DNA from: an uncultured Bifidobacterium sp.
GTDB lineage: Bacteria; Actinomycetota; Actinomycetes; Actinomycetales; Bifidobacteriaceae
Length of the DNA: 52,317 nucleotides
Direction of reading: 5' to 3'
NCBI RefSeq assembly: GCF_945269915.1
Contig: NZ_CALYOY010000013.1
Location: 1-52,317 of the forward strand
Below, one piece after another: positions 6,590 to 21,566 of this stretch (positions are counted from its first letter, which is position 1; each line of letters opens with the position of its first letter). The position numbers and the translations under genes were made by a program. The notes below the pieces were generated by a model. The model made no database searches and was not told the origin of the DNA. It worked only from the letters and a program-made list of their open reading frames with translations.

Positions 6590-6597
6590 ACGGCATC

Positions 6598-6646
6598 GTG
6601 CGGGTGACATCCGGTTGCGACCGCATGTCACCCGCACGGGTTTCTT
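6598..6646 (+). terminator. glgP terminator, between convergent genes
   Basis: A perfect 13-bp stem, GTGCGGGTGACAT (6598-6610) with ATGTCACCCGCAC (6625-6637), a 14-nt loop, then GGGTTTCTT. It lies between glgP and the oppositely oriented LacI gene and probably serves both. Confidence 0.8.
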
Positions 6647-7655
6647 ACGACCTGGGAGGTTTGGTCGTGTCCCTCAGCACCAGATGGGTCGGAAACATCT
6701 GGAAGCGAGTATGAGGTTCGCGGTCGGCGATAAGGTCCAGAACCTTTTCGGCCGCCGACTTGCCCATGGCGTATGGGTCCTGCCTGATGGTCGTCAGGCC
6801 CATCTGGCGGCTATAGGTGCTGTCGTCGAAGCCGATCATGGAGAGATCCTCCGGTACGTGTCTTCCGTAGCGGCGAATTCGGTAGAGGACGGGTATGGCC
6901 AGCTCGTCGGTCTGGAAGCAGACGGCCGAAGGGGCAGGGTCGAGGGCCAGCAGCTGGGAGAGTGCCGAGTTGGAGACGTCCTGGCCCGGAGGACACTGTA
7001 TGGCTGTGACCTGATCGGTGATACCGGCATCCTTGCAGGCGTCCATGAACCCGGCAAGGCGTTCGTCGGCACGGTATTGGAAGGGTGAGCCGTGGCCGGC
7101 CCTGACGAACGCAATCCTGTGATGGCCGAGGCCTATGAGGTGGTTGACCGCCAGTTTCATGGAATCGTGGTCATTCACGTTGACCGCCGCGTTGAACCGG
7201 TCGGTGGCAGGTATGTTGATGCCTACGATCGGCACGTCCATATCTCCGAGTTTGGCTATCTCCTTCGGCTCGATGTTGAAGGAGCAGACGACGATGGCAT
7301 CGGCGTTGCGTCGGACCGGCAGGTTGGTGAAGAAGCGGTTGCGCGCTTCAAAGGTGTTCATGGAGTAGATCGAGATGTCGTAGCCGGCATCCTGCAGAAC
7401 GTCATTCAGGCCTTCGAAGACGTGGCTGTTGAACCATTTGGTGATGCTGTCGCTGATAAGCATGGCGATGCGCAGGGATTGCCCCGATTTCAAGGCCGCA
7501 GCCGACCGGGAAATCCTGAAGTCCAATTGCTCGGCCACTTCCAGCACCCGATCACGGGTGCGGCTCGACACCAATTGCGGACGGGTAAAGGACCTGGACA
7601 CCGTGGAGACGGAAACCCCCGCCTTTTCGGCTACATCTTGGATTGTGGACTTCAT
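6645..7655 (-). CDS. LacI-family transcriptional regulator (sugar-responsive)
   Basis: A 336-aa repressor with an N-terminal LacI helix-turn-helix (STIQDVAEKAGVSVSTVSRSF, about residues 3-23) and a hinge ending near residue 55, followed by a periplasmic-binding-protein-like effector domain (blocks VPIVGINIPA, HRIAFVRAG, SMIGFDDS). The start at 7655 is chosen for GGAGGGGG immediately upstream. It is divergent from the first binding-protein operon. A 12-bp operator-like motif lies in this intergenic region at 7787 and again at 8101, with relatives before glgP and malQ, so it may autoregulate and control starch or maltodextrin genes. The effector sugar is not known. Confidence 0.9.
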   Translation of the reverse strand: MKSTIQDVAEKAGVSVSTVSRSFTRPQLVSSRTRDRVLEVAEQLDFRISRSAAALKSGQSLRIAMLISDSITKWFNSHVFEGLNDVLQDAGYDISIYSMNTFEARNRFFTNLPVRRNADAIVVCSFNIEPKEIAKLGDMDVPIVGINIPATDRFNAAVNVNDHDSMKLAVNHLIGLGHHRIAFVRAGHGSPFQYRADERLAGFMDACKDAGITDQVTAIQCPPGQDVSNSALSQLLALDPAPSAVCFQTDELAIPVLYRIRRYGRHVPEDLSMIGFDDSTYSRQMGLTTIRQDPYAMGKSAAEKVLDLIADREPHTRFQMFPTHLVLRDTTKPPRS

Positions 7656-7786
7656 CGACCCCCTCCGATCGGCAGGCACCTATGACGGCGGGAGAACACC
7701 TGAGACCTGAACATGGGCAAACCGACCATACCTATCCTCCCGACTACAGTGTGACAGCAAGATTTCAGCAAGGTGTCCGGTTCGGA

Positions 7787-7798
7787 GACAACGATAGC
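7787..7798 (+). promoter_or_regulatory. LacI-type operator (lacI side)
   Basis: GACAACGATAGC. It differs at one position from the malQ-upstream site GACAACGATTGC and at two from the reverse of the 8101 site. It lies 132 nt upstream of the LacI start codon, consistent with autoregulation. Confidence 0.45.
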
Positions 7799-8100
7799 AT
7801 CATCTTCCATACTATTGCCCTTGCAATTATATGATGACCGGCCTCTTGAGATCTGGTTCTGGATGCTATGTGGGCGTTTCACTGGTCTGCTCACGAGATG
7901 GTTACGTTTTCATTATTGAGACACACGGTGGGGTCCTTCTGGTTGGATCTGCTCCACAGTTGCAGGGATGGTCCCGAAAGTTGCATGTTGCTACATTCCA
8001 TCGCCCGGATGCTGGATCCACCCGACATCTTGTCTTTCTTACGGTCTTTAGGGGACAGCCTGAATTTGGTCGAGAAGTGGCGGACCGGCATGGCACGTAT

Positions 8101-8112
8101 GCTATCGTTTGC
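8101..8112 (-). promoter_or_regulatory. LacI-type operator overlapping the binding-protein promoter
   Basis: GCTATCGTTTGC, reverse complement GCAAACGATAGC, which matches 10 of 12 positions of the LacI/MalR core GCAAACGTTTGC. It overlaps the proposed -35 element TTGCAT (8109-8114), a repressing position. Confidence 0.5.
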
Positions 8113-8136
8113 ATTTTTTGGAAATTTGTAGACAAT
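8109..8136 (+). promoter_or_regulatory. Candidate promoter of the first binding-protein operon
   Basis: TTGCAT (8109-8114), a 16-nt spacer, then GACAAT (8131-8136). It predicts a leader of about 75 nt. Confidence 0.4.
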
Positions 8137-8219
8137 GGTAGATAGATCGGATTTCATGTCAACGCGGATCCAGTGCATTGGCATCGTGAGGAATTCGGCA
8201 CGAACAAGAGAAAGGTTCG

Positions 8220-9569
8220 ATGATGAATCAAATGGTAACCAAGGGGGTCGGTCTTCTGGCGGCCCTGACCTTGTCGGTTGGTGCCCTTGCGGGATGCGGT
8301 TCCTCGTCTTCATCCGGAGACGACAAGGCCGATGCGGGCAAGGTGTTCTTCATGAACTTCAAGCCCGAGGCAGCGGATCAGTGGAAGGACATCGCTGACG
8401 AGTACACCAAGGAGACCGGCGTAAAGGTCGATGTGCAAACCGCCGCTTCCGGCACCTATGAGCAGACGCTCAAGTCGGAGATCGCAAAGTCACAGCCTCC
8501 GACACTCTTCCAGGTCAACGGCCCTGTGGGTCTGTCGAGCTGGAAGTCCTACACGGCCGACATGTCCAAGAGCGAGGTTTACAAGCAGCTCAACAACAAG
8601 GACCTGGCCCTGAAGTCGGACGATGGTTCCCAGGTGCTCGGTGTCCCCTATGCCATGGAGACCTATGGGTTGATCTACAACAAGGACATCCTCGGCAAAT
8701 ACATGAAGCTCTCGGATGCCAGGGTCAAGTCCGTCAAGGAAATCGACTCCTTCGAGAAGCTCAAGGAGGTGGCCGACGGTATCCAGCAGCATAAGGATGA
8801 ACTCGGTGTCAAGGGTGCGTTCACGTCCGCAGGGTTCGATTCCAGCTCCGATTGGCGCTTCAAGACCCACCTGGCCAACATCCCCCTCTACTATGAGCTG
8901 AAGGATGAGAACGTCAAGGCACAGCCCGAGACCGTCAAGGGCACATACATGCCTCAGTTCAAGCAGATTTTCGATCTGTACCTGAAGGACTCCACCACCG
9001 ATCCCAAGCAGCTGAGCTCCAAGACCGGTGATGACGCCAACTCCGAATTCGCCCTGGGTGAGGCCGCACTGTACCAGAACGGGACCTGGGCATGGTCGGA
9101 CCTGGAGAAGGCGGGCATGGACAAGTCGAACGTGGGCATGATGCCCATTTACATCGGGGCACCCGGCGAGAAGAAGCAGGGACTGGCCACAGGATCCGAG
9201 AATTACTGGTGCATCAACAAGAAGGCCTCCAAGAAGGACCAGCAGGCCACTGAGAAGTTCCTGGCCTGGATGATCACATCCGAGAAGGGGAAGAAGGCCA
9301 TGAGTTCCGACATGGGCCTCACCACCCCTTTCAAGAGCTTCGACAAGGTCAAGTCCGACAACCCCCTGGTCGAGGAGGCCGTGAAGGACTCCAAGTCGGG
9401 CAAGGAGCAGGTCGGCTGGAACTTCACCATGATGCCTTCCGAGCAGTGGAAGAACGATCTGGGCAACGCCATGCTGGAATATGCCCAGGGCACCGGTGAC
9501 TGGGACAAGGTCAAGAGCGCGTTTGTCGACAACTGGGCCAAGGAGTATCAGGCCAACCATAAGGCTTGA
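8220..9569 (+). CDS. ABC transporter sugar-binding lipoprotein (SBP1)
   Basis: Family-1 extracellular solute-binding protein, anchored in the membrane by lipid. The signal peptide ends in LSVGALAGC, with the lipobox cysteine at Cys26; a Ser-rich linker follows. The mature protein has the fold expected of maltose/oligosaccharide-binding proteins (about 420 residues). Two ATGs stand in tandem at 8220 and 8223; AAAGG at 8211 suits the second slightly better. It is paralogous to the two binding proteins at 14.9 and 16.4 kb, sharing blocks such as SGTYEQTLKSE and the C-terminal MLEYAQGTGDWDKVKS. The permease genes follow after a large hairpin. The ligand is unknown; the context suggests an oligosaccharide containing glucose or fructose. 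Confidence 0.93.
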   Translation: MMNQMVTKGVGLLAALTLSVGALAGCGSSSSSGDDKADAGKVFFMNFKPEAADQWKDIADEYTKETGVKVDVQTAASGTYEQTLKSEIAKSQPPTLFQVNGPVGLSSWKSYTADMSKSEVYKQLNNKDLALKSDDGSQVLGVPYAMETYGLIYNKDILGKYMKLSDARVKSVKEIDSFEKLKEVADGIQQHKDELGVKGAFTSAGFDSSSDWRFKTHLANIPLYYELKDENVKAQPETVKGTYMPQFKQIFDLYLKDSTTDPKQLSSKTGDDANSEFALGEAALYQNGTWAWSDLEKAGMDKSNVGMMPIYIGAPGEKKQGLATGSENYWCINKKASKKDQQATEKFLAWMITSEKGKKAMSSDMGLTTPFKSFDKVKSDNPLVEEAVKDSKSGKEQVGWNFTMMPSEQWKNDLGNAMLEYAQGTGDWDKVKSAFVDNWAKEYQANHKA

Positions 9570-9613
9570 GACTCTCGATCCTGTTCCCGCAAGTGGTCGT
9601 GTGAGTTGACTCG

Positions 9614-9657
9614 GTCCTGCACGCCTTCCGGCCTTTGGCGCGGAAGGGGTGCAGGAC
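9614..9657 (+). promoter_or_regulatory. Large intercistronic hairpin between SBP1 and permease genes
   Basis: A 17-bp stem with one mismatch (9614-9630 with 9641-9657), extended by GCC/GGC around a TTT tip. No U-tract follows, so it is more likely a processing or 3'-end-protecting structure that keeps binding-protein mRNA in excess over permease mRNA, as described for malE and related operons, than a full terminator. Confidence 0.65.
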
Positions 9658-9690
9658 AATCTGAACAGCGGGGATCGAGGAAGGATATAC

Positions 9691-10545
9691 ATGGTTTCGA
9701 TGGTTGGTAGGTCTGTTCGTAGGTGGTGGGGGTTGTTTACGTTGCCTACGGTGTTGGCTTTTGTTGTTGGTTTTGTGGTGCCGTTTGTGATGGGTGTGTA
9801 TTTGAGTTTCTGTCGGTTCACGACGGTGACGGATGCGCGGTTCATTGGTCTGGGGAATTACCGGGCGGCCTTGTCGGATGGTGAGTTCTGGCATGCGTTG
9901 GTGTATACGGTGGCGTTCACGGTGGTGACGACGTTGGTGGTCAATGTCGTGGCTTTCGCGGTGGCGTTCCTGTTGACGAAGGCGATCCGCGGGGCGAATG
10001 TGTTCCGTTCGGTGTTCTTCATGCCGAACCTGATCGGCGGGATCATCCTGGGGTATATCTGGTTGTTGCTGCTCAACGGGGTGTTGGCCCATTGGGGTCG
10101 TTCGATCACGTATTCGGGTGTGTATGGGTTCTGGGGGATGGTGATGTTGTATTGCTGGCAGCAGATCGGCTATATGATGATCATCTATATCGCGGGTCTG
10201 CAGGCTCTTCCCGGTGATGTGATCGAGGCGGCGCAGGTCGATGGCGCCAATGGGCGGCAGACCTTGTTCCGGGTGACGTTGCCGTTGATGATGCCCAGTA
10301 TCACGGTGTGTTCCTTCCTGACGGTGACGAACGGGTTCAAGATGTTCGACCAGAACCTGGCGTTGACCAACGGGGCCCCGTCGAACACGTCCGAGTTGTT
10401 GGCGCTGAACATCTACCGGACCTTCTACGGCAGGACCGGTTTCGAGGGTGTGGGCCAGGCCAAGGCGGTGGTGTTCTTCGTGATCGTGGCGGTGATCGCG
10501 GTGTTGCAGAACAGGTTGACGACCAGCAGGGAGGTGTCGGCATGA
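9691..10545 (+). CDS. Sugar ABC transporter permease, MalF-like, copy 1
   Basis: A 284-aa inner-membrane permease with about six transmembrane segments and the cytoplasmic EAA loop (EAAQVDGANGRQTLFRVTLP) that docks the ATPase. Start ATG 9691 has AGGAAGG upstream. It overlaps the next permease by 4 nt (ATGA at 10542-10545), so the two are translationally coupled. From its second base it belongs to a 1,704-bp direct repeat with 17823-19526, and its protein is the same as copy 2 apart from the initiator codon. The first 40 or so codons end almost only in T or G, unlike neighbouring genes. No ATPase gene is in the window. Confidence 0.93.
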   Translation: MVSMVGRSVRRWWGLFTLPTVLAFVVGFVVPFVMGVYLSFCRFTTVTDARFIGLGNYRAALSDGEFWHALVYTVAFTVVTTLVVNVVAFAVAFLLTKAIRGANVFRSVFFMPNLIGGIILGYIWLLLLNGVLAHWGRSITYSGVYGFWGMVMLYCWQQIGYMMIIYIAGLQALPGDVIEAAQVDGANGRQTLFRVTLPLMMPSITVCSFLTVTNGFKMFDQNLALTNGAPSNTSELLALNIYRTFYGRTGFEGVGQAKAVVFFVIVAVIAVLQNRLTTSREVSA

Positions 10546-11395
10546 GTGAGCGTATCAGGCATTCGTGGTTGTGGACGGTTCTGTTCACGGTGGTCTCCCT
10601 GTTGTGGGTGTTCCCGATCGTGCTGGTGGTGGTCAATTCCTTCAAGAACAAGGCGTATATCTCTCGTGACGCGTTCTCGGTCCCGCGGGGCCGGGCCTTC
10701 GTGGGGTTGGATAACTACGCGCGGGGGATCGAGCGGACGAACCTGTTGGCGAGCTTCGGCTGGACCGTGGTGGTCACGGTGGGTTCGGTGGCCCTGATCC
10801 TGTTGTGCACGTCCATGTGCGCCTGGTGGATCGTGCGGGTGGGCAACCGGGTGGCGAGGTTCCTGTACCTGTTGTTCCTGTTCAACATGATCGTGCCGTT
10901 CCAGATGGTGATGTTCACGCTTTCCAAGCTTGCGGACATGCTGGGGCTGAACACGCCCTGGGGGTTGTGGATCGTGTATCTGGGGTTCGGCGCCGGTCTG
11001 GCGGTGTTCATCTTCACGGGTGTCGTCAAGGGCATCCCGGTGGAGCTGGAGGAGTCGGCCATGATCGACGGGGCGAGCATCCCGCGCACCTTCTTCGGGA
11101 TCGTGGTGCCCATCATGCGTCCCTCGATCGTGTCGGTGGCGATCCTGGAGGCGATGTGGATATGGAACGACTTCCTGCTGCCCTACCTGACCCTGGACAT
11201 GCGTAAGTACAAGACCATGAGCATAGCGATCCAGTACCTCAAGGGCGGGTACGGCAGCGTGGACATGGGGGCCATGATGGGATGCCTGGTCCTGGCCATC
11301 ATCCCCATCATCGTCTTCTACCTCGTCTGCCAACGCTACATCATCAGCGGCGTCCTCGCCGGCGCCGTCAAAGGATAACCACACACAGGAACCAG
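9692..11395 (+). repeat. 1,704-bp direct repeat, copy 1 (two permease genes)
   Basis: From the second base of the permease start codon to 17 nt past the second permease stop, this block matches 17823-19526 with a constant offset of 8,131 bp; I saw no substitution or indel, and open frames on all six frames inside the block have the same lengths and translations in both copies. Flanks on each side are unrelated. Confidence 0.95.
10542..11378 (+). CDS. Sugar ABC transporter permease, MalG-like, copy 1
   Basis: A 278-aa membrane permease with an N-terminal segment and about six transmembrane helices. The EAA loop reads EESAMIDGASIPRTFFGIVVP. The ATG at 10542 overlaps the stop of the preceding permease; the longer open frame from 10308 is just overlap with that gene. 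With its partner it forms the channel for a binding-protein-dependent importer. Codons at the 3' end are almost all C-ending, in contrast to the T/G-ending start of the pair. It is identical to the gene at 18673. Confidence 0.93.
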   Translation: MSERIRHSWLWTVLFTVVSLLWVFPIVLVVVNSFKNKAYISRDAFSVPRGRAFVGLDNYARGIERTNLLASFGWTVVVTVGSVALILLCTSMCAWWIVRVGNRVARFLYLLFLFNMIVPFQMVMFTLSKLADMLGLNTPWGLWIVYLGFGAGLAVFIFTGVVKGIPVELEESAMIDGASIPRTFFGIVVPIMRPSIVSVAILEAMWIWNDFLLPYLTLDMRKYKTMSIAIQYLKGGYGSVDMGAMMGCLVLAIIPIIVFYLVCQRYIISGVLAGAVKG

Positions 11396-11397
11396 AC

Positions 11398-11440
11398 AGG
11401 ACCGGCCCCGGTGTATCGTCAGGATAACCGAGCCGGTCCT
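11398..11440 (+). terminator. Stem-loop after permease copy 1
   Basis: AGGACCGGC (11398-11406) pairs with GCCGGTCCT (11432-11440) around a 25-nt loop; the tail is only TCC. It is probably a weak terminator or processing site ahead of the DUF624 gene. It begins 3 nt after the end of the direct repeat. Confidence 0.45.
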
Positions 11441-11472
11441 TCCATACCCGGCACCACACCCCGGAGGCGATC

Positions 11473-12072
11473 ATGAACTTCCTTTCACCGGACTCCGGTT
11501 TCATGCGCGGCTTGTCCGATGCCATAGACGCCATCTGGATCAACCTCCTGATGGTGGTCACCAGCCTGCCTTTGGTAACGGTGGGTGCCGCCTTGGCGGC
11601 GGGGCATGACGCGGCAAGGCGAATGCTGGAAGGCCAGGGGAACGTCACGGCTAACTACTTCAGGGCCTTTAAGGCGAACTTCGCCAAGGCCACCCTGATC
11701 TGGCTGGTGTTCGGCCCGACCCTGGCTGTCCTGGTCTTCTCCTGGGTGGTCTTGCAGATCCCCCTGCTCCTGATCGTCAAGTTCGCCTTCAGTATCGTCT
11801 GGATCATCGGTTTCGAGTGGGTGTGGGCCCTGCAGGCCAGGTTCGAGAATTCCGTCGGGCGCACACTCTTGAATGCCATGGTTTTCGGCGTGGTCGGATG
11901 GATCAGGACCCTGGCCATGGTGGCCATGGACCTGTGCTACCTGGCTCTGGTTGCGGCATCATGGTTCTACATGCCTCAGGGGCTCTTCCTCCTGGCCATT
12001 CTTGGGTACGGGACCCTGATCACGCTGCACACCCCTCTCCTGAATGGGGCTCTTGCGCGGTACGTGTCCTGA
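11473..12072 (+). CDS. YesL/DUF624 family membrane protein
   Basis: A 199-residue integral membrane protein with about five hydrophobic segments, matching the DUF624 (YesL) family that is regularly encoded with family-1 sugar ABC importers and glycosidases. Features are the N-terminal FMRGLSDAIDAIWINLL and a C-terminal TLHTPLLNGALARY. GGAGG lies 7 nt before the ATG. The molecular role of the family is not established; association with oligosaccharide uptake is from genomic context. It sits between the permease genes and the second LacI regulator. Confidence 0.8.
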   Translation: MNFLSPDSGFMRGLSDAIDAIWINLLMVVTSLPLVTVGAALAAGHDAARRMLEGQGNVTANYFRAFKANFAKATLIWLVFGPTLAVLVFSWVVLQIPLLLIVKFAFSIVWIIGFEWVWALQARFENSVGRTLLNAMVFGVVGWIRTLAMVAMDLCYLALVAASWFYMPQGLFLLAILGYGTLITLHTPLLNGALARYVS

Positions 12073-12155
12073 TTCCCGGTGAAAGGGGACTTTACCTATC
12101 GCCCGGGTCCGGGGCTGAGGCGGAAAGTTGTGCCGCGCGATTAGGATTGGACAGC

Positions 12156-13199
12156 ATGGTCACATTGCAGGATGTCGCACGGGAAGCAGGCGTTTCGATT
12201 GCCACGGCATCCTGGGCGGTCAATGACAACAAGAATGTCAGGATACCGGAATCGACCAGGAAGAAGGTCAGGAAGGTCGCCGAAGACCTGGGGTATCGGC
12301 AGAATGCGATGGCTCGGAGTCTGGCCAGGGGGCGCTCCGACCTGATAGGGTTCGTCAGCGACGGCGTGGCCACGTCGCCATTTGCCGGCCAGGTTATTCA
12401 GGGTGCGCAGGATGAGGCATGGCGGAACGGCAAGATACTGCTCATCGTCGATACGCATGGCGATCCAAGCATAGAACGCAGGGCCTGTGCTTTTATGCTG
12501 GAGCGCCAGGTTGAGGGAATCGCCTACTCGTCATGGGTGCATCATGAGGTCCAGCCTCCACGCGATCTTGGCAATGTCAACGCGGTTCTGGTCAACTGCT
12601 TTGACAAGAGGGGGCGTTTTCCCGCCGTTGTCCCCGATGAGGTCCAGGGCGGACGTACCGCCACGGAGCTACTGATTGAAGCGGGACACAGGAGAATAGC
12701 CTTCGTCAATGATGTCGGAGTCTCGCCTGCTTCGAAGGGGCGACTGCAGGGGTACAAGGAGGCTCTTGCCCATGCAGGGGTGGCTTTTGACCCGGACCTG
12801 GTCCTTCAGTGCAGGGCTGACCAGGACGGTGGTTATGGGGTGATGCGGCAGGTTCTGCAAACGCAGGCCACGGCGGTGTTCTGCCACAACGACAGAACAG
12901 CCATGGGTCTGTATGACGCCATGCGTGAGCGCGGACTGCATGTGCCCGATGATCTTTCAGTCGTGGGATTCGACAATCAGGAACTAATTTCGGCCCATCT
13001 CCATCCGGCCCTTTCAACCGTCGGTCTGCCCCAGTATGAGCTGGGTGTTCTCGGCATCCGTACCCTCCTTCAGTACCAGGAGCGACGAACAGAAGGCGCG
13101 ACCAAGAAGGGGGAGGGTGTCAACAAGCCTTTCTACGAGCCCATACGAGTGGTCTGCCCACCTGTCCGCCGGAGCTCAGTCAAGCCCATAGCCGACTAG
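12156..13199 (+). CDS. LacI-family transcriptional regulator 2
   Basis: A 347-aa repressor. The helix-turn-helix starts at residue 2 (VTLQDVAREAGVSIATASWAV); the effector domain contains HRRIAFVNDVG and SVVGFDNQELIS. The frame is open upstream to 11817, but that part overlaps the DUF624 gene, so the ATG at 12156 (AGGA 9 nt upstream) is used. The recognition helix has Ser-Ile-Ala-Thr-Ala-Ser-Trp, with Trp where Arg is common, so its operator may differ from that of the first LacI protein. The nearest downstream promoters (13.2 and 14.8 kb) both carry TAAGYGCTTA, the likely target (inference). Confidence 0.9.
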   Translation: MVTLQDVAREAGVSIATASWAVNDNKNVRIPESTRKKVRKVAEDLGYRQNAMARSLARGRSDLIGFVSDGVATSPFAGQVIQGAQDEAWRNGKILLIVDTHGDPSIERRACAFMLERQVEGIAYSSWVHHEVQPPRDLGNVNAVLVNCFDKRGRFPAVVPDEVQGGRTATELLIEAGHRRIAFVNDVGVSPASKGRLQGYKEALAHAGVAFDPDLVLQCRADQDGGYGVMRQVLQTQATAVFCHNDRTAMGLYDAMRERGLHVPDDLSVVGFDNQELISAHLHPALSTVGLPQYELGVLGIRTLLQYQERRTEGATKKGEGVNKPFYEPIRVVCPPVRRSSVKPIAD

Positions 13200-13238
13200 T
13201 GGGTGCCAGAACGATTCCTTAGGGTTGGAGGCTCGCAT

Positions 13239-13266
13239 TTGACTTTCGGTGTAAGGAATCTATAAT
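13239..13266 (+). promoter_or_regulatory. Promoter of the GH32 gene
   Basis: TTGACT (13239-13244), a 16-nt spacer, then a perfect TATAAT (13261-13266). The operator-like TAAGTGCTTA starts at the last base of the -10 element. Confidence 0.75.
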
Positions 13267-13283
13267 AAGTGCTTAATCGCTTA
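13266..13283 (+). promoter_or_regulatory. Operator-like TAAGTGCTTA plus half-site before GH32
   Basis: TAAGTGCTTA (13266-13275) differs at one base from the perfect palindrome TAAGCGCTTA at 14837; a further half-site CGCTTA follows at 13278-13283. It covers the transcription start region, so a repressor bound here would block the GH32 promoter. Confidence 0.55.
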
Positions 13284-13335
13284 AACAGAGCAGTCGAAAG
13301 CGTTGTACTGAGATATGAGAACCCGAAAGGACATA

Positions 13336-14730
13336 ATGACGAAGCTGTACTATCAATTCCCTGGCACTTGGTTCGGTGATTGTATGCCCTTTGGGAAGGG
13401 CGATGAGTTCTACCTCTTCCACCAGCGTGATGATCGCGATCCTGTTCCCTTTGGTCAGCCTTTCGGCTGGTCGCTGGCTACGACCAAGGATTTCGTGCAC
13501 TATAAGGACTGCGGTATCGCTATACCTCGGGGAAGTGACCAGGACCAGGACCAGTTCATCTATGCCGGCAGCATCTTCCAAGCCGAGGGGCAGTACCACG
13601 CTTTCTACACTGGGTATAACCGGGATTATCCAGCCCAGGGCAAGCCCTCGCAGGTGCTGATGCATGCCGTCAGCGATGACCTCCAGCATTGGCGGAAGAC
13701 CCAGGACGCCCTGACCTTTACCCCTCAGGAGGGGTACGATCCTGACGATTGGCGTGACCCCTGGGTTATTCGTGATGAAGACAAGGACCAGTACCTTCTG
13801 GTGCTGGGTGCCAGGAAGCAGGGTCCGAAGACCAGGCAAAGCGGACGGACCGTGGCCTTCACCTCCAAGGATCTGAAGGACTGGCGATTCGAAGGCGACT
13901 TCTGGGCTCCCGACCTGTACACCATGCATGAGATGCCTGATCTGTTCAAGATGGGTGACTGGTGGTATCACATCGTTACCGAGTACAGCGACAAACACGG
14001 CATGATCTACAGGATGGCACCCAGCCTGGAAGGCCCGTGGACCGCCCCTGTCGACGACGCCTTTGATGGCAGTGCCTATTATGCCGGAAGGACCTTCGAG
14101 CTGAACGGCAAACGCGTCCTGTTCGGCTGGGTCGCCACCAAGGAACACGACGATGACACGAGCAATTATGAGTGGGGCGGTACATTCGTGCCCCATCAGA
14201 TCATGCAGCGTCAGGATGGTTCACTGGGCGTGCAGCCGGTGGACACCCTCTGGGAGTCCTTCGACGATCGGCGTGCCCTGCCTGATGTGAGCCTGGATTC
14301 ACCCGACAGGTGTTCGGAACAGGTCCTGGATGATCAGAGCGGTGACTTGATCAGCTTCGAGGCCGATGTCTCATTCTCTGCCGGTACGCGTGCCTTCGGT
14401 TTGCGTCTGTATGAAAACGAGCAGACCGGTGAATCGTACCAGTTCGATTTCAAGGTCGGTGAGAATCGTTATCTCTTTGAGGGGAACCCGAACTACCCCT
14501 GGTTCAGCAACATGAACATTGGGCTGGAAAGGCCCATAAGGCTCGAACCTGACACCGTGTACCACATGCAGCTTGTGGTCGATGACACCATAGCCACCTT
14601 ATATGTTGATGGTGTTGCCCTGAACGCCCGGGTGTACCGCCATTATGGGGACGGACTGAGTATGTTCGTCACCGAAGGCTCCATCAAGGTCTCGGGCATA
14701 TCCATCTCCAACACCTTGAAGGAGGTGTAG
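13336..14730 (+). CDS. GH32-like fructan/sucrose-active glycosidase, atypical active site
   Basis: A 464-aa cytosolic protein (no signal peptide) with the GH32 plan: an N-terminal five-bladed propeller and a C-terminal beta-sandwich (about residues 300-464). The RDP motif is present (WRDP, Asp141). The nucleophile motif, usually WMNDPNG, is replaced by WFGDCMPF (candidate Asp15), and the acid/base motif, usually ECPD, reads EMPD (Glu199). GH32 enzymes release fructose from sucrose, fructo-oligosaccharides or fructans; this variant may prefer another fructoside. The ATG at 13336 is chosen over 13315 for AAAGGA just upstream. A strong promoter with operator precedes it, and a binding-protein gene follows. 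Confidence 0.8.
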   Translation: MTKLYYQFPGTWFGDCMPFGKGDEFYLFHQRDDRDPVPFGQPFGWSLATTKDFVHYKDCGIAIPRGSDQDQDQFIYAGSIFQAEGQYHAFYTGYNRDYPAQGKPSQVLMHAVSDDLQHWRKTQDALTFTPQEGYDPDDWRDPWVIRDEDKDQYLLVLGARKQGPKTRQSGRTVAFTSKDLKDWRFEGDFWAPDLYTMHEMPDLFKMGDWWYHIVTEYSDKHGMIYRMAPSLEGPWTAPVDDAFDGSAYYAGRTFELNGKRVLFGWVATKEHDDDTSNYEWGGTFVPHQIMQRQDGSLGVQPVDTLWESFDDRRALPDVSLDSPDRCSEQVLDDQSGDLISFEADVSFSAGTRAFGLRLYENEQTGESYQFDFKVGENRYLFEGNPNYPWFSNMNIGLERPIRLEPDTVYHMQLVVDDTIATLYVDGVALNARVYRHYGDGLSMFVTEGSIKVSGISISNTLKEV

Positions 14731-14836
14731 TCACTTACCAAGAACCCATCAGGTAACCGGCATCCGTCGATGACGCAGTGGATGCCGGTGAGTACGATCC
14801 CACCACCCATGAAGCGTGAGTGGAGTCTTTTTAGCT

Positions 14837-14846
14837 TAAGCGCTTA
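14837..14846 (+). promoter_or_regulatory. Palindromic operator TAAGCGCTTA before SBP2
   Basis: A perfect 10-bp palindrome of LacI-operator type, with a second half-site ATAAGCG near 14867-14873. It is related to the site overlapping the GH32 promoter, suggesting control by the same regulator, probably the LacI protein at 12156-13199. Confidence 0.55.
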
Positions 14847-14857
14847 TCCATTTGTGA

Positions 14858-14885
14858 TTGAAGTGAATAAGCGTCCCGATAAAGT
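14858..14885 (+). promoter_or_regulatory. Candidate promoter of SBP2
   Basis: TTGAAG (14858-14863), a 16-nt spacer, TAAAGT (14880-14885). The operator palindrome lies just upstream and the half-site lies in the spacer. Confidence 0.4.
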
Positions 14886-14912
14886 AGTCGGTCTCAAAGC
14901 AATGGAGTGAAT

Positions 14913-16226
14913 ATGAGAAGAATCATGAAGGCCACGGCGGCAGTAGGCGTCCTGGTGCTGTCCGTCAGTGGGCTTGCCGCCTGCGGAGGGTCTCAGGAGA
15001 GCGCGGATAAGGGTCACGTGTACTATTTGAGCGCGAAACCCGAGCAGCAGGATGAATTCAAGGAGCTGGGCAAGCAGTTCACCAAGGATACGGGAATCCC
15101 CGTCGATATATCAGTGGCATCATCGGGTACTTATGAGCAGTCCCTGAAGAGCGAGCTGGCCAAATCGAATGCCCCCACCATGTTTGATGTCGATAACAAT
15201 GACTTCCAGAACTGGGGGGATTACTACAGTGACATGTCGGGCACCGGCATTTACAAGGATCTGAAGAACAAGGATTACGCACTCAAGCTCAATGACAAGG
15301 TCATTGCAGTGCCCTATGTCATGGAGCGCTACGGAATCATCTACAACAAGGCTTTGATGAAGCAGTATTTCGACGCAAAGTGGTCGAGCATCAAGTCCAT
15401 CAAGGAAGTGAACAATTTCAAGGCCTTGAAAACTGTCGCTGATGAGATCCAGGAGCATAAGGGGGATCTGGGCGTCAAGGGCGCTTTCAGCTCGGCAGGA
15501 TTCGACGCCAGCTCCAGCAAGCGCTTTGGGGATCAGCTCGCCCACATTCCCGTCTATTACGAGTACCGGGACCAGAATGCCGTGGAAGAGCCCCCGACCA
15601 TTTCAGGCAAGTACATGGAGAACTTCAAGAACATCTTCGACCTGTATCTGAAGGATTCGACCACCCCGCCGACCCAGCTGTCGAGTGCGACGATGGATGA
15701 CTCGAACAACGAGTTCGCCACCAAGCAGTCCGTTTTCCTGCAAAACGGTTCATGGGGGTACCCGCAGATAAAGGACCAGGATGTGCCCGATGGGGATATA
15801 GGAGTGCTGCCCATCTACATCGGTGTCCCCGGTGAGGAGAAGTCCGGTCTGACGGTCAGTTTCATGTACTTCGCCACCAACAAGAAGGCCTCCGACAAGG
15901 ATAAGAAGGCGACGGCGCAGTTCCTGGATTACTTCCTGAAGAACAACAACGCCAGGAAGATCGTGACTGACGATATGGGCTTCGAGACGCCTTTCAAGTC
16001 ATATGAGAAGGATGGCTTCAAGTCGAAGAACCCTGTTCAGCGGGCCAATGATGCCTACGCCAAGGCCGGTGATTACGATACGGTGATTCACCCGCTTCCC
16101 AGCGCCCAGTGGGTGGCTTCGCTCAGCGATGCCATGCTTGAGTATGCTCAGGGAACAGGTGACTGGTCCAAGGTCCAGAGTTCGTTCGTTGACGGCTGGG
16201 CCAAGGAGTACAAGACCACGCACTGA
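14913..16226 (+). CDS. ABC transporter sugar-binding lipoprotein (SBP2)
   Basis: A 437-aa family-1 solute-binding lipoprotein. The signal peptide is short and hydrophobic with lipobox LAAC (Cys24). The frame also contains GTG at 14907, but GGAG 5 nt before the ATG at 14913 and equal length with the next paralogue favour 14913. It shares most of its sequence blocks with SBP3 (LGKQFTKDTGI, DQLAHIPVYYEYRDQ, MGFETPFKSY, WSKVQS), so the two look like a tandem duplication, with SBP1 more distant. Ligand-facing positions differ, so the two probably bind related but distinct sugars and share one permease pair (inference). Confidence 0.93.
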   Translation: MRRIMKATAAVGVLVLSVSGLAACGGSQESADKGHVYYLSAKPEQQDEFKELGKQFTKDTGIPVDISVASSGTYEQSLKSELAKSNAPTMFDVDNNDFQNWGDYYSDMSGTGIYKDLKNKDYALKLNDKVIAVPYVMERYGIIYNKALMKQYFDAKWSSIKSIKEVNNFKALKTVADEIQEHKGDLGVKGAFSSAGFDASSSKRFGDQLAHIPVYYEYRDQNAVEEPPTISGKYMENFKNIFDLYLKDSTTPPTQLSSATMDDSNNEFATKQSVFLQNGSWGYPQIKDQDVPDGDIGVLPIYIGVPGEEKSGLTVSFMYFATNKKASDKDKKATAQFLDYFLKNNNARKIVTDDMGFETPFKSYEKDGFKSKNPVQRANDAYAKAGDYDTVIHPLPSAQWVASLSDAMLEYAQGTGDWSKVQSSFVDGWAKEYKTTH

Positions 16227-16248
16227 CAGGAAGGCAGAAGTCCAGGGT

Positions 16249-16283
16249 GGGGGCGTTCCGTCGGATTCCCGCAGAACGTCCCC
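16249..16283 (+). promoter_or_regulatory. Intercistronic stem-loop between SBP2 and SBP3
   Basis: GGGGGCGTTC (16249-16258) pairs with GAACGTCCCC (16274-16283), 10 bp including one G-T, 15-nt loop, no U-tract. It is probably an mRNA processing or stability element separating the two binding-protein messages. Confidence 0.5.
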
Positions 16284-16370
16284 GCCGGCCCTACCGGTGC
16301 AGCGGTTGATGGCGAGGTACTCATTGTCGAGTGCCGTGACTGATTCCAAAGGAAAGGGATGAGGTGCGAG

Positions 16371-17684
16371 ATGAAAGCCAAATCGATTCTGGCAGTGGCT
16401 GCTTCCTTGTGCATGATGCTGGGTGTCTCGGCCTGTGGGGGGTCATCGAATCCCTCCGCCGAGGGGCGGGTGTACATGATCAGTCAAAAGGTCGAGAACA
16501 ATGATCAGTTCGTTGAACTGGGTAAGCAGTTCACCAAGGATACAGGGATCGCGTTCAATGTTGTCTCCCCTGCGGCGGACAGCTATGAGCAGACACTGAA
16601 AAGCGAGCTTGCCAAGAGCAACGCCCCGACCATCATCGGACTCGATAACAACGACTATCCGAATTGGGCGGAGTACTGTGCGGACCTATCCGGCACAAGT
16701 ATGTACAAGGACCTGAAGGATCCCAATTACGTGTTAAAGACCGGCGATAAGGTCGGGGCCATACCGTTCGTTTTGGACCGGTACGGCATCATCTACAACA
16801 AGGCGATACTGGGGAAGTACTTCCACGCTTCCTGGGCCAGTCTCCACTCCGTGGATGAGATCCGTGGTTTTGATGCCTTGAAGACCGTGGCAGATGAGAT
16901 CCAGGCGCATAAGGATGAACTCGGCATCAAAGGGGCCTTTACCTCAGCTGGTTTTGAGTCAAGTTCCATCCGGCGTTATGGCGATCAGCTCGCCCACATC
17001 CCCGTTTACTACGAGTACCGGGATCAGGGCAGGACAGATCTGCCTCCCACGGTATCCGATAAGTACGTACCCGACATGAAGAGGATATTCGACCTGTACA
17101 TCAAGGATGAAACGGTGCCTGCGACACAGCTGTCGAGTGCCACCTTTGACGATGCGGTATCCGAATTCTCGCTTGGGGATGCCGTTTTCATCCAGACGGG
17201 ATCCTGGGCGTATCCGCAGCTCAAGGGCCAGAAGGTCGAAGACAAGGATATGGGCGTCCTGCCGATATACATGGGTGTGCCCGGAGAGGACAAGGCCGGG
17301 CTGACGATCAGTTCCAACTACTTCGCCATCAACAAGAAGATCCCTGCCGCCGACAGGAAGGCGACCGAGCGCTTCCTGGACTGGATGCTGACCAATGATG
17401 GGGCCAGGAAGATCGTGACGGACACCATGGGCTTTGAGACGCCTTTCAAGTCCTATTCCAAGGCAGGGTACAAGACCCGAAATCCCATTCTCAGATCCAA
17501 CGATGCCTATGCCAAGAGGCATTGCTACGACATGACCATCCGTCCTCTACCCTCGCAACAGTGGTCCCTCAGTCTTGGGAACGCCATGTTGGAGTATGCC
17601 CAGGGTACGGGGGACTGGTCCAAGGTCCAATCGGCCTTCGTCGACGGCTGGGCTTCGGAATACAAAACGACTCACCAAGGATGA
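16371..17684 (+). CDS. ABC transporter sugar-binding lipoprotein (SBP3)
   Basis: A 437-aa paralogue of SBP2 encoded directly downstream. The lipobox is GVSAC (Cys22). ATG at 16359 is also possible (AAGGAA upstream), but ATG 16371 with GAGG 6 nt before it gives a more typical signal peptide and the same length as SBP2. Conserved blocks run through the whole protein, while stretches near residues 50-60 (FNVVSPAADSYEQ against DISVASSGTYEQ in SBP2) differ, pointing to altered ligand preference. It is followed after 137 nt by the second copy of the permease pair. A Cys in the C-terminal region (RHCYDM) is not shared with SBP2. Confidence 0.93.
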   Translation: MKAKSILAVAASLCMMLGVSACGGSSNPSAEGRVYMISQKVENNDQFVELGKQFTKDTGIAFNVVSPAADSYEQTLKSELAKSNAPTIIGLDNNDYPNWAEYCADLSGTSMYKDLKDPNYVLKTGDKVGAIPFVLDRYGIIYNKAILGKYFHASWASLHSVDEIRGFDALKTVADEIQAHKDELGIKGAFTSAGFESSSIRRYGDQLAHIPVYYEYRDQGRTDLPPTVSDKYVPDMKRIFDLYIKDETVPATQLSSATFDDAVSEFSLGDAVFIQTGSWAYPQLKGQKVEDKDMGVLPIYMGVPGEDKAGLTISSNYFAINKKIPAADRKATERFLDWMLTNDGARKIVTDTMGFETPFKSYSKAGYKTRNPILRSNDAYAKRHCYDMTIRPLPSQQWSLSLGNAMLEYAQGTGDWSKVQSAFVDGWASEYKTTHQG

Positions 17685-17821
17685 GGATGCCTATGGGCGC
17701 GATTGAGCACGGTTTCAATGTTTGCTGTCGTACATATCGGCGGGGTTGTGTCTCTGGTCATCCACGTTTCTCAGTGAGACCGGACCGGGCACTGACTCGG
17801 GATATGGGTTAGGAGGTTATG

Positions 17822-18676
17822 GTGGTTTCGATGGTTGGTAGGTCTGTTCGTAGGTGGTGGGGGTTGTTTACGTTGCCTACGGTGTTGGCTTTTGTTGTTG
17901 GTTTTGTGGTGCCGTTTGTGATGGGTGTGTATTTGAGTTTCTGTCGGTTCACGACGGTGACGGATGCGCGGTTCATTGGTCTGGGGAATTACCGGGCGGC
18001 CTTGTCGGATGGTGAGTTCTGGCATGCGTTGGTGTATACGGTGGCGTTCACGGTGGTGACGACGTTGGTGGTCAATGTCGTGGCTTTCGCGGTGGCGTTC
18101 CTGTTGACGAAGGCGATCCGCGGGGCGAATGTGTTCCGTTCGGTGTTCTTCATGCCGAACCTGATCGGCGGGATCATCCTGGGGTATATCTGGTTGTTGC
18201 TGCTCAACGGGGTGTTGGCCCATTGGGGTCGTTCGATCACGTATTCGGGTGTGTATGGGTTCTGGGGGATGGTGATGTTGTATTGCTGGCAGCAGATCGG
18301 CTATATGATGATCATCTATATCGCGGGTCTGCAGGCTCTTCCCGGTGATGTGATCGAGGCGGCGCAGGTCGATGGCGCCAATGGGCGGCAGACCTTGTTC
18401 CGGGTGACGTTGCCGTTGATGATGCCCAGTATCACGGTGTGTTCCTTCCTGACGGTGACGAACGGGTTCAAGATGTTCGACCAGAACCTGGCGTTGACCA
18501 ACGGGGCCCCGTCGAACACGTCCGAGTTGTTGGCGCTGAACATCTACCGGACCTTCTACGGCAGGACCGGTTTCGAGGGTGTGGGCCAGGCCAAGGCGGT
18601 GGTGTTCTTCGTGATCGTGGCGGTGATCGCGGTGTTGCAGAACAGGTTGACGACCAGCAGGGAGGTGTCGGCATGA
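17822..18676 (+). CDS. Sugar ABC transporter permease, MalF-like, copy 2
   Basis: The 284-aa protein matches the permease at 9691-10545 residue for residue after the first codon. Here the aligned start codon is GTG (17822) rather than ATG, because the repeat begins at its second base; AGGAGG (17811-17816) is 5 nt upstream. ATG 17819 is only 2 nt from the ribosome site. The permease is therefore under different upstream control from copy 1, with a better ribosome site but a weaker start codon. It overlaps the next gene by 4 nt. Confidence 0.92.
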   Translation: MVSMVGRSVRRWWGLFTLPTVLAFVVGFVVPFVMGVYLSFCRFTTVTDARFIGLGNYRAALSDGEFWHALVYTVAFTVVTTLVVNVVAFAVAFLLTKAIRGANVFRSVFFMPNLIGGIILGYIWLLLLNGVLAHWGRSITYSGVYGFWGMVMLYCWQQIGYMMIIYIAGLQALPGDVIEAAQVDGANGRQTLFRVTLPLMMPSITVCSFLTVTNGFKMFDQNLALTNGAPSNTSELLALNIYRTFYGRTGFEGVGQAKAVVFFVIVAVIAVLQNRLTTSREVSA

Positions 18677-19526
18677 GTGAGCGTATCAGGCATTCGTGGT
18701 TGTGGACGGTTCTGTTCACGGTGGTCTCCCTGTTGTGGGTGTTCCCGATCGTGCTGGTGGTGGTCAATTCCTTCAAGAACAAGGCGTATATCTCTCGTGA
18801 CGCGTTCTCGGTCCCGCGGGGCCGGGCCTTCGTGGGGTTGGATAACTACGCGCGGGGGATCGAGCGGACGAACCTGTTGGCGAGCTTCGGCTGGACCGTG
18901 GTGGTCACGGTGGGTTCGGTGGCCCTGATCCTGTTGTGCACGTCCATGTGCGCCTGGTGGATCGTGCGGGTGGGCAACCGGGTGGCGAGGTTCCTGTACC
19001 TGTTGTTCCTGTTCAACATGATCGTGCCGTTCCAGATGGTGATGTTCACGCTTTCCAAGCTTGCGGACATGCTGGGGCTGAACACGCCCTGGGGGTTGTG
19101 GATCGTGTATCTGGGGTTCGGCGCCGGTCTGGCGGTGTTCATCTTCACGGGTGTCGTCAAGGGCATCCCGGTGGAGCTGGAGGAGTCGGCCATGATCGAC
19201 GGGGCGAGCATCCCGCGCACCTTCTTCGGGATCGTGGTGCCCATCATGCGTCCCTCGATCGTGTCGGTGGCGATCCTGGAGGCGATGTGGATATGGAACG
19301 ACTTCCTGCTGCCCTACCTGACCCTGGACATGCGTAAGTACAAGACCATGAGCATAGCGATCCAGTACCTCAAGGGCGGGTACGGCAGCGTGGACATGGG
19401 GGCCATGATGGGATGCCTGGTCCTGGCCATCATCCCCATCATCGTCTTCTACCTCGTCTGCCAACGCTACATCATCAGCGGCGTCCTCGCCGGCGCCGTC
19501 AAAGGATAACCACACACAGGAACCAG
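17823..19526 (+). repeat. 1,704-bp direct repeat, copy 2
   Basis: Second copy of the block at 9692-11395, same orientation, offset 8,131 bp. It ends inside the left arm of the hairpin at 19522-19556. Confidence 0.95.
18673..19509 (+). CDS. Sugar ABC transporter permease, MalG-like, copy 2
   Basis: A 278-aa permease identical to the protein at 10542-11378, with the same 4-nt overlap to its partner. It closes the SBP2-SBP3-permease operon and is followed by two stem-loops, the second a strong terminator. As in copy 1, no ATP-binding subunit is encoded nearby. Confidence 0.92.
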   Translation: MSERIRHSWLWTVLFTVVSLLWVFPIVLVVVNSFKNKAYISRDAFSVPRGRAFVGLDNYARGIERTNLLASFGWTVVVTVGSVALILLCTSMCAWWIVRVGNRVARFLYLLFLFNMIVPFQMVMFTLSKLADMLGLNTPWGLWIVYLGFGAGLAVFIFTGVVKGIPVELEESAMIDGASIPRTFFGIVVPIMRPSIVSVAILEAMWIWNDFLLPYLTLDMRKYKTMSIAIQYLKGGYGSVDMGAMMGCLVLAIIPIIVFYLVCQRYIISGVLAGAVKG

Positions 19527-19556
19527 TGCGGGCCTATTTGTGTATGGCCCACTGGT
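19522..19556 (+). terminator. First stem-loop after permease copy 2
   Basis: ACCAGT and GGGCC (19522-19534) pair with GGCCC and ACTGGT (19546-19556), with a 2-nt bulge. The end of the direct repeat (19526) falls inside the left arm. Confidence 0.5.
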
Positions 19557-19569
19557 ATTTGAGGTTAGA

Positions 19570-19614
19570 CCGACCCACCGGTTGCTCCTTCGAGCACGGT
19601 GGGTCGGCTTTTCT
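19570..19614 (+). terminator. Rho-independent terminator of the SBP2-SBP3-permease operon
   Basis: CCGACCCACCG (19570-19580) pairs perfectly with CGGTGGGTCGG (19597-19607); the loop contains a further TGCTC/GAGCA stem with a CTTC tip. CTTTTCT follows. It separates the transporter operon from the alpha-glucosidase gene. Confidence 0.88.
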
Positions 19615-19811
19615 GGTTGGCGTGTATGAGGCCAGAAGATACGAGGGGGTTGGGTATTCTGTATTCCCGTAAGGACGGTGTCCGCAAGGCATCGGCCGGT
19701 CGGCTGTCTGATGGGGGCGGACCCCGTCGAAACCTTTCACCGGCTCGCGCCGATATATGGAGACGGTACTTGGTTGTTCAAGCGAAGTTGATGGAAATGC
19801 ACCGGAGGAGG

Positions 19812-21566
19812 ATGGCAGTGGATACGGATGTGCTCGAAGACGACTGGTGGAAGCAGGCAGTGGTCTATCAGGTTTACCCTCGTAGCTTCAAGGACTCGGA
19901 TGGAGACGGTCTGGGGGATCTGCCGGGAATCATCGATAAGATTCCCTATCTGAAAGCGCTCGGCATTGACGCGGTCTGGCTTTCCCCCTTCTACCCGTCG
20001 GCCTTGGCCGACGGCGGATACGATGTGATCGACTATCGCAATGTGGATCCCAGGCTGGGCACGATGGGCGATTTCGACTCCATGGCGGATGCCCTCCATG
20101 CAGCCGGCCTGAAGCTGATTGTCGATATCGTTCCCAACCACACCTCCAACCTGCATCCTTGGTTCCGGGAGGCCCTTGAGGCCGGACGTGGGTCCAGCGG
20201 GCGCGATCGGTATATCTTCAGGGAGGGGAGGGGCGACCATGGCGAACTCCCCCCGAACGATTGGCGGTCCCTCTTCGGTGGTCCTGCCTGGGAACGGGTG
20301 GATGACGGCCAGTGGTACCTGCACATCTTCGCCAGGGAGCAGCCGGATCTGAATTGGAAGGATCCTCGGGTTCATGAGGACTTCCAGCGGACCCTGCGAT
20401 TCTGGTCGGACCATGGGGCCGATGGTTTCCGCATTGATGTCGCCCACGGCCTGGCCAAGGAGCTGGACGACAGGCCCCTGGACCAGATGGATCCCGATGC
20501 GGTCGGGAATACCCTCTCCCACGATGGCACAAGTCCTCTCTGGGACCGCAACGAGGTGCACGACATCTACAGGGAATGGCGGGCTGTCTTTAACGAGTAC
20601 CGACCGCCCCGTTTTGCGGTCGGCGAGGCCTGGGTGGTGCCCGAGCACCAGTATCGGTATGCCTCGCCGACGGAACTCGGCCAGGTGTTCAACTTCGAGT
20701 TCGCCAAGGCGAACTGGAACCGGGAACAAATGGGCACGGCGATCCGCGAGGGTATGGAGGCTGCAGACAGATCCGGGTCGACCACGACCTGGGTCATGAG
20801 CAATCACGACATTCCCCGTCATGCGAGCAGGTACGGTCTTCCCCAGGTCGATGCCACGAATTATCACCAGCTGGCAAATGATTGGATCCTCCGTGACGGC
20901 CGCAGCTACCGCGAGGACAGGGCCCTGGGAACGCGGAGGGCTCGTGCCGCCATATTGATGGAACTGGCTCTGCCCGGATCGGTGTATATCTATCAGGGAG
21001 AGGAGCTTGGCCTGTTCGAGGTTCCCGATCTTCCCTGGGACCGTCTCGAGGATCCCACCGCCCGTCGTACCCATGGAAGCGCGACGGAGAAGGGGCGGGA
21101 TGGTTGTCGCGTTCCCCTGCCGTGGAGTTCCGAGGACCAGCCTGAGTCGGCTCCCTGGCAGGCAACCTTCGGACAGGGCGGGTCCTTCGGGTTCTCGCCG
21201 GACACCAAGGAGGACGGTACACCCAGCGACGATCCGCACCTGCCGCAGCCCCTGTGGTTCAAGGACTTCTGCGTCGACCTTCAGGAGGGTGACGACTCGT
21301 CCATGCTGGCCCTCTATAGGAAGGCCCTGGCCCTGCGATCCGAATGGATGAAGAAGGCCCTGGCTTCGGGGCTGGACCTCGAGGAGAGGAAGGATGATGT
21401 GCTGACCTTCCGGCGGGCGGATGTCTCTGGATCGGGTGGACTCGTCTGCATGACAAACTTCGGGACCAATCCTGTCCCCGTCCAAGACGGTTCCATTGTG
21501 CTGGCTTCGGGAGCGCTCCAGGAAGGGATGATTCCAACCGATACCACCGTCTGGATCCGCTTCTGA
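19812..21566 (+). CDS. aglA: Alpha-glucosidase / oligo-1,6-glucosidase (GH13)
   Basis: A 584-aa cytosolic GH13 enzyme hydrolysing alpha-glucosidic bonds in short oligosaccharides. Catalytic residues are Asp209 (DGFRIDVAHG, nucleophile), Glu272 (AVGEAW, acid/base) and Asp333 (SNHDIPRH, stabiliser). The N-terminal WWKQAVVYQVYPRSFKD and DGGYDVIDYR are typical of bifidobacterial alpha-glucosidases. The frame is open to 19599 but the natural start is near the GGAGGAGG at 19804-19811: ATG 19812 or GTG 19818, the latter better spaced. It lies behind a strong terminator, so it needs its own promoter, which I could not identify. The symbol is by similarity to bifidobacterial enzymes. Confidence 0.92.
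   Translation: MAVDTDVLEDDWWKQAVVYQVYPRSFKDSDGDGLGDLPGIIDKIPYLKALGIDAVWLSPFYPSALADGGYDVIDYRNVDPRLGTMGDFDSMADALHAAGLKLIVDIVPNHTSNLHPWFREALEAGRGSSGRDRYIFREGRGDHGELPPNDWRSLFGGPAWERVDDGQWYLHIFAREQPDLNWKDPRVHEDFQRTLRFWSDHGADGFRIDVAHGLAKELDDRPLDQMDPDAVGNTLSHDGTSPLWDRNEVHDIYREWRAVFNEYRPPRFAVGEAWVVPEHQYRYASPTELGQVFNFEFAKANWNREQMGTAIREGMEAADRSGSTTTWVMSNHDIPRHASRYGLPQVDATNYHQLANDWILRDGRSYREDRALGTRRARAAILMELALPGSVYIYQGEELGLFEVPDLPWDRLEDPTARRTHGSATEKGRDGCRVPLPWSSEDQPESAPWQATFGQGGSFGFSPDTKEDGTPSDDPHLPQPLWFKDFCVDLQEGDDSSMLALYRKALALRSEWMKKALASGLDLEERKDDVLTFRRADVSGSGGLVCMTNFGTNPVPVQDGSIVLASGALQEGMIPTDTTVWIRF

Follow-up and report, generated by a model that had tools for sequence, protein, structure and literature searches.

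How do two copies of the same genes, lying in two different operons, come to read identically when the sequences around them differ? The question is raised by a sugar-transport locus from an uncultured Bifidobacterium sp. (RefSeq assembly GCF_945269915.1, contig NZ_CALYOY010000013.1), in which a pair of permease genes—permease A and permease B—occurs twice on the forward strand of the 52,317-bp stretch analysed here (the window). From comparison with related genomes, we conclude that these permease pairs undergo concerted evolution by gene conversion, its limits set by the points at which homology between the copies ends, and we give this reading a probability of about 0.88. The same two genes show an anomaly in base composition, absent from the first-pass annotation of the window, which is the most unusual part of the locus.

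An exact repeat filled by two permease genes

An exact-match scan of the window recovered a single maximal exact direct repeat, in which positions 9692–11395 (copy 1) equal positions 17823–19526 (copy 2) over 1,704 bp at an offset of 8,131 bp; nothing else of 30 bp or longer was repeated exactly in either orientation. The perfect repeat described in the first-pass annotation was thus confirmed, together with its limits: it runs from the second base of the permease A start codon—ATG at 9691 in copy 1, GTG at 17822 in copy 2, with an alternative ATG one codon upstream at 17819—to 17 nt beyond the permease B stop codon. An interval of 6,427 bp separates the copies and, with one copy added, gives 8,131 bp, the size of the circle that the annotation expected recombination to release. 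Its statement that the surroundings are unlike also held, as start codon and neighbouring genes differ and the binding proteins (SBPs) have diverged (62% identity between SBP2 and SBP3, 46% between SBP1 and SBP3).

Permease A (9691–10545 in copy 1) matches BPD_transp_1 at E = 7.8e-15 and permease B (10542–11378), which overlaps it through the motif ATGA, at E = 1.5e-12, with weak UgpA/GlcT-like and GlcU/MalG-like matches, respectively, below cut-off; no permease of the locus reached an NCBIfam equivalog cut-off. The second copies were assigned by repeat identity (A, 17822–18676, also by BPD_transp_1; B, 18673–19509).

An exact match this long is not a product of chance. In the source genome (1.97 Mb, 71 contigs) both copies were found at 100%, along with a third pair at 72% (C15:43533-45212) and one 26-base match, and self-comparison of approximately 507 kb of the genome's own sequence returned the permease-pair repeat as the only repeat longer than 300 bp at ≥85% identity. 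The two genes fill the repeat, within which no mobile or homing signature (nuclease, integrase or element) was found. None of 18 matched plasmid records covered 80% of the repeat and none was a close relative; viral contigs gave two matches, at 66% and 54%.

Copies alike within genomes and different between them

Twenty-seven genomes of the genus were searched, that of the window included; 19 gave a match at E ≤ 1e-100 and eight held two copies in one locus. In three of these eight—the window, G024 and G007—the copies within a genome are identical, at 1,687 of 1,688 positions in both the window and G024 and at all 1,642 aligned bases in G007, where copy 2 lacks 46 bases. Between genomes, identity of the pair falls to 87% (window and G024), 86% (window and G007) and 97% (G024 and G007). 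The case for conversion is carried by G024 and G007, since each is assembled as a single contig in which the genome's own copies are identical, while orthologues differ between the two genomes and the leaders and neighbours of each copy are orthologous. Fifty-three of 1,683 coding bases distinguish G024 from G007, and none of them splits the copies within either genome, barring the gaps in G007 copy 2. Their repeats start no more than 2 bp from the start codon, and that of G024 ends 2 nt beyond the stop. Compared over 60 nt, the copy-1 leaders are alike in the two genomes, as are the copy-2 leaders, whereas copy-1 and copy-2 leaders differ. A DNA tree joins the copies by genome (support 100/100 for the window, 100/99 for G007, 98/90 for G024), and a constraint uniting the three copy-1 sequences was rejected (approximately unbiased test, p = 7e-136; log-likelihood 910 lower). 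The two-copy layout thus predates the split between G024 and G007, and homogenisation recurred.

This bears on the origin of the repeat, for which the first-pass annotation had offered either very recent copying or ongoing gene conversion of the channel genes only. The second is strongly supported by the identity within and divergence between G024 and G007; the first, taken as a single event, does not, as their two-copy layout predates their split. A recent segmental duplication arising independently in each species would likewise leave copies completely identical within a genome, as is seen. It would, however, have had to land twice at the same place beside the same genes, given the two-copy order common to G024 and G007 and the orthology of each copy's leader and neighbours, and a duplication that placed the pair exactly onto an existing pair would be gene conversion by another name. 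It was rejected for these two genomes, which have the layout in common, and we consider it highly improbable. Slightly less credible still is an assembly artefact, in which one real copy, or two diverged copies, had been written twice. The draft state of the window's assembly and the length of the repeat (1.7 kb, longer than short reads) invite such a suspicion, but the same two-copy state occurs with different sequences in the two single-contig genomes, which led us to reject it; moreover, G007 copy 2 has deletions of its own, and start-codon base and flanks differ between copies. An assembly copy or a one-off duplication is therefore a very unlikely source of the repeat.

Several observations weigh against concerted evolution by gene conversion. 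Five of the eight two-copy genomes are not homogenised, their copies having diverged to pairwise identities of 71–86% (G026 85.9%, G022 85.5%, G014 74.3%, G012 71.6%, G010 71.4%); the copies are closer to each other than to orthologues elsewhere in the other three genomes and not in these five. Gene order is mostly common to the window, G024 and G007, but the GH13 gene is inverted in G024 and G007 (as in G022 and G026, whose loci also lack SBP3), and G024 has a LacI gene on the minus strand between SBP1 and copy 1. The window's leaders are unlike those of G024, and the age of its two-copy state must consequently be judged from gene order alone. From species to species, the pair has diverged less at silent sites than its flanks have, which homogenisation by itself does not explain. 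Lastly, the window's own assembly is a draft, and no conversion event was seen directly.

In two of the diverged genomes, G022 and G026, the last 269 and 281 bp of the copies are identical (L124:6596-6864 with 13334-13602; L125:6807-7087 with 13546-13826). The G022 stretch differs from G024 by 11–15% and is thus not simply invariant, and these identical 3′ ends form a partial conversion tract with an internal tract end. In G007, permease A of copy 2 (L123:13854-14656) is broken by deletions of 45 bp and 1 bp, with no substitution in 1,642 bases, which suggests how recently the copies were equalised; the single-base deletion is possibly a read error. A wider scan of contigs covered at least 79 loci with flanks of up to 10 kb and, among the matches listed, showed one locus with two permease A copies, 71% alike, which belongs once more to G012. 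Judged by permease A, the nearest named relatives, likewise among the matches listed, are Bifidobacterium.

Base composition and silent divergence of the pair

In the three homogenised genomes, where the pair spans 9692–11378 and 17823–19509 of the window, A occupies the third codon position (A3) in 6, 5 and 5 of 561 codons. Across 17 other copies, a set with several close siblings in it, the count is 23–107 of 561. Third-position G (G3) of permease A, at 56–59%, is the highest among 295 mechanical open reading frames (ORFs) in the sample from the window's own genome, itself included (z = +4.7), and stands at z = +5.7 against 130 ORFs of the G024 sample; some of the ORFs ranked just below are frames of the pair extended too far. 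From 5′ to 3′ along the pair, third-position T (T3) drops from 29–31% to 1–2% and third-position C (C3) climbs from 9–12% to 53–56%. Set against synonymous-codon shuffles, these T-to-C gradients gave z = 6.2–8.0 in each of the three homogenised genomes, with no value above 2.0 among the 17 other copies, the test having used 20 of 26 copies (omitting copy 2 of the window and of G024 as duplicates, copy 2 of G007 for its deletions, and three of other length). Leucine codons TTG/CTG, in which the silent site is the first position, follow the same gradient (z = 3.3–3.7; others at most 1.8).

The pair also shows the strongest G+T (keto) strand skew of the sampled quarter of the genome. At the two copies this skew amounts to +0.34 and +0.32 per 800 nt, the most skewed stretches lying on the plus strand at 9692–10540 and 17823–18671, and it rises to +0.50 over the first 281 nt; across 4,356 windows, values outside the pair reach at most 0.195 in size. 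Triplets TGG, GTG and GGT make up 0.131 of the pair against a mean of 0.075, and windows over the pair rank highest of 2,094 from the genome's own sequence.

This letter bias is maintained, not fading. Where the window and G024 differ at four-fold sites, A is involved in only one of 72 cases, compared with 21% in core genes (binomial, 9e-7), and for G024 and G007 in none of 16, compared with 32% (0.002); over all third positions, A is involved in two of 29 differences between the latter. The bias is present in all three homogenised genomes and in none of the 17 other copies tested. As the three represent one lineage of sequence, the association between bias and homogenisation is phylogenetically one case, perhaps two. 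No such bias was found in 21 pairs profiled from the 79 listed loci (two from G012, one from G025), among which the nearest likeness is a milder T-to-C trend in the AT-rich L060; a check for low A3 covered the first 40 of those loci.

What might cause the bias? We think it unlikely that it comes down to ordinary codon selection, to GC-biased conversion or to a motif of the Chi type. Third-position GC is raised in the G024 pair (0.81 and 0.95, against 0.60–0.65 in neighbours) and, with weaker contrast, in the window (0.81 and 0.92, against 0.67–0.83), as GC-biased conversion would have it; yet that process predicts that A and T be depleted alike, and in the 5′ sixth of the pair A3 is 0–1% and T3 29–31% in the window, G024 and G007. 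Codons chosen for expression fit poorly, in that the remaining ORFs with the least A3 in the sample show C3 of 0.45–0.57 and G3 of 0.32–0.37 and are not G/T-rich like the pair. As for a Chi-like motif, the best 5–8-mer with at least three occurrences in both the window and G024 reached only z = 2.8 against codon-shuffled controls, and no short motif stood out clearly above them.

Other candidates were tried and set aside. A hidden overlapping gene was rejected, as the longest open stretches in other frames are of similar size in the G022 copies, and so was strand deamination as sole cause, as the window has G at 78 of 117 four-fold sites where copy 2 of G022 has C. A shift in amino acids, towards Val and Arg and away from Ile and Lys, was not used as a sign of whole-codon pressure, because copy 2 of G012 has much of the same shift with no silent bias.

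A different kind of cause would lie in recombination itself. On short DNA, RecA dissociates most slowly from TGG repeats, and neither Chi nor TG-rich DNA was found to affect nucleation (Kim et al., 2013; PMC3763553). That is biochemistry on short DNA, whereas the pair is a natural gene set known from its sequence, but the likeness to RecA-preferred TGG- and TG-rich DNA is seen in its high share of TGG, GTG and GGT on one strand, and slow loss of RecA from TGG repeats, taken with that share, makes a recombination-favouring sequence plausible. Compared with 1,500 background pieces, single-strand folding of the first 200 nt falls in the weakest 1% in each of the three homogenised genomes, and nearly so in the non-homogenised G023 (98.7/99.7 percentile); folding of the whole pair is not exceptional, and the picture from folding is mixed. 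The pair's G+T strand bias may, then, favour its own recombination. In the strongest form of this idea, doubtful in our view and a shade less probable than the conventional causes above, the pair would be a nuclease-free conversion driver, whose extreme G+T coding strand, richest at the 5′ end and weakening towards the 3′ end, would be a preferred RecA substrate and would overwrite its paralogue and other species' versions, composition being both cause and product of frequent conversion.

Silent divergence was measured at four-fold sites against core genes, for which 16 shared ORFs were compared, five dropped as likely wrong-frame (four-fold differences of 0–9% with many amino-acid changes) and 11 kept. 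Between G024 and G007 the pair differs at 5.5% of these sites, seven neighbouring genes at 13–25% and the 11 core genes at 19%; between the window and G024 the figures are 28% for the pair, 62–75% for neighbours (window 8220–21566 against L122, the G024 locus) and 36% for core genes, with amino-acid divergence of 9.3% in the pair and 7.8% in core genes. The sugar-locus haplotypes themselves look older than the species split. Slow silent evolution was not used as a mark of the bias, because the permeases of G012 and G010, which have no letter bias, also differ little from each other (4.3% and 7.7%, with core genes at 14.3%; L126:5053-6740 and 12718-14405 against L127); between G022 and G026 permease divergence is not low (0–6.5% by gene, core median 2.2%).

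These figures raise the possibility, to which we incline a little less than to its opposite, that the pair also spreads between species unaccompanied by its neighbours, replacing both copies in the recipient. Six housekeeping genes (those of ten core genes offered that were present in all nine taxa) place the window with G022 and G026 (100/100), and permease trees place it with G024 and G007 (DNA 99/99, codon positions 1 and 2 87/89, protein 78/73). A clade of the window with all G022 and G026 copies was rejected on DNA (p = 0.0004) and protein (p = 0.013), and one with only their second copies on codon positions 1 and 2 (p = 0.03); the smaller divergence of the pair than of its flanks from G024 points the same way. 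On protein, however, neither the grouping of the window with those second copies nor that of G024 and G007 with the second copies of G012 and G010 was rejected (p = 0.19 in each case), and the tree program flagged the rows for the window, G024 and G007 as differing from the others in their bases, so that odd composition may pull the three together in the DNA tree. A tree of LacI, GH32 and SBP2 is unresolved, placing the window with G024 and G007 (77/81) but not rejecting G022 and G026 as its partners (p = 0.40), and one housekeeping gene puts the window nearer G024 (91%) than G022 (88%). The pair's divergence between the window and G024 is moreover near that of core genes, which means that the flanks may be the odd ones. 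Between-species transfer, hidden paralogy and constrained silent sites are together possible.

Mechanism, locus and setting

Concerted evolution of the pair by gene conversion would most likely proceed as follows. During repair of a break or gap, the direct copies would pair, presumably through RecA, and one pair would be copied over the other non-reciprocally, either with no crossing over or with crossovers that are not kept. Because only the pair is homologous between the operons, tracts would stop at the gene ends, leaving the pair identical and the start-codon base, leaders and neighbours copy-specific. Repeated conversion may be of benefit, in that two operons with different binding proteins would have one standard channel. 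Crossing over would remove DUF624, LacI, GH32, SBP2 and SBP3 as an 8.1-kb circle, a loss that the first-pass annotation predicted and that is mechanically sound. Its deletion product, SBP1 followed directly by one permease pair and GH13, was absent from 16 stretches of other genomes examined; cells that had lost the interval may have been purged by selection for the second operon.

The locus runs, all on the plus strand, from SBP1 (8220–9569; SBP_bac_8, E = 3.4e-43) through the first permease pair, a DUF624 gene (11473–12072; PF04854, E = 7.3e-12), a LacI-family regulator (12156–13199, or a longer frame from 11817; PF00356, Peripla_BP_3 and LacI-family models), a beta-fructosidase-like GH32 enzyme (13336–14730; PF00251, E = 4.7e-32), SBP2 (14913–16226; SBP_bac_8) and SBP3 (16371–17684; SBP_bac_8) to the second permease pair and a GH13 enzyme, the aglA of the first-pass annotation (19812–21566, or a longer frame from 19599; Alpha-amylase family, E = 3e-93). 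Its gene order suggests two tandem sugar ABC-importer operons, each with its own binding protein or proteins and both with the same channel. Bifidobacteria are described as having a shared ATPase whose gene lies elsewhere.

Upstream, positions 4085–9569 of the window hold a phosphorylase-like gene (named by eye), a minus-strand LacI gene and SBP1, in the order of L126 and L127 (G012 and G010) and not of G024. The SBP1 protein is 87% identical to those of G012 and G010, against 66% for G024 and 64% for G007, and downstream of the permease pair the window follows the G024 order. From these arrangements, SBP blocks also seem to have been exchanged between species, with the permease pair as the joint.

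BPD_transp_1 permeases beside SBP_bac_8 partners, a LacI regulator and glycosidases liken the locus to the CUT1 class of carbohydrate ABC importers, with MalF/MalG- and UgpA/GlcU-like permeases. It departs from the usual CUT1 importer in having two operons with diverged binding proteins and a single channel sequence common to both. For bacterial ribosomal RNA operons, concerted evolution through gene conversion has been described (Gifford et al., 2020; PMC8022953). As there, dispersed copies in one genome are held identical by intragenomic recombination; here, however, the copies are a protein-coding transporter pair in two different operons, with homology limited to two genes and an odd strand composition. 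Pairs of tuf genes, which evolve in concert, do provide two near-identical protein-coding copies per genome, but tuf is a very highly expressed housekeeping gene and not a sugar permease pair. GC-biased gene conversion in bacteria is itself disputed (PMC8153448). The locus resembles it as a recombining locus with raised third-position GC, at least in G024, and differs in a strand-asymmetric, graded bias which that process does not predict. None of the openly licensed papers in PubMed Central (PMC) combines Bifidobacterium, gene conversion and permease, and the titles and abstract openings listed in PMC for concerted evolution in ABC transporters, for concerted evolution in Bifidobacterium and for permease duplication in B. 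asteroides report no such pair or bias; nor, in the portion available, does PMC9429759 treat a homogenised permease pair.

The locus is a natural and compact example of two protein-coding bacterial genes evolving in concert, seen in three genomes, where homology is cut at the gene ends and donor, recipient and boundary are consequently easy to follow. It also counsels caution with sugar loci of this kind, as one can be misled by their permease trees, copy counts and assemblies. Among the copies tested, the strand-asymmetric silent bias occurs only in the homogenised lineage, and this lets one ask whether base composition steers gene conversion in bacteria.

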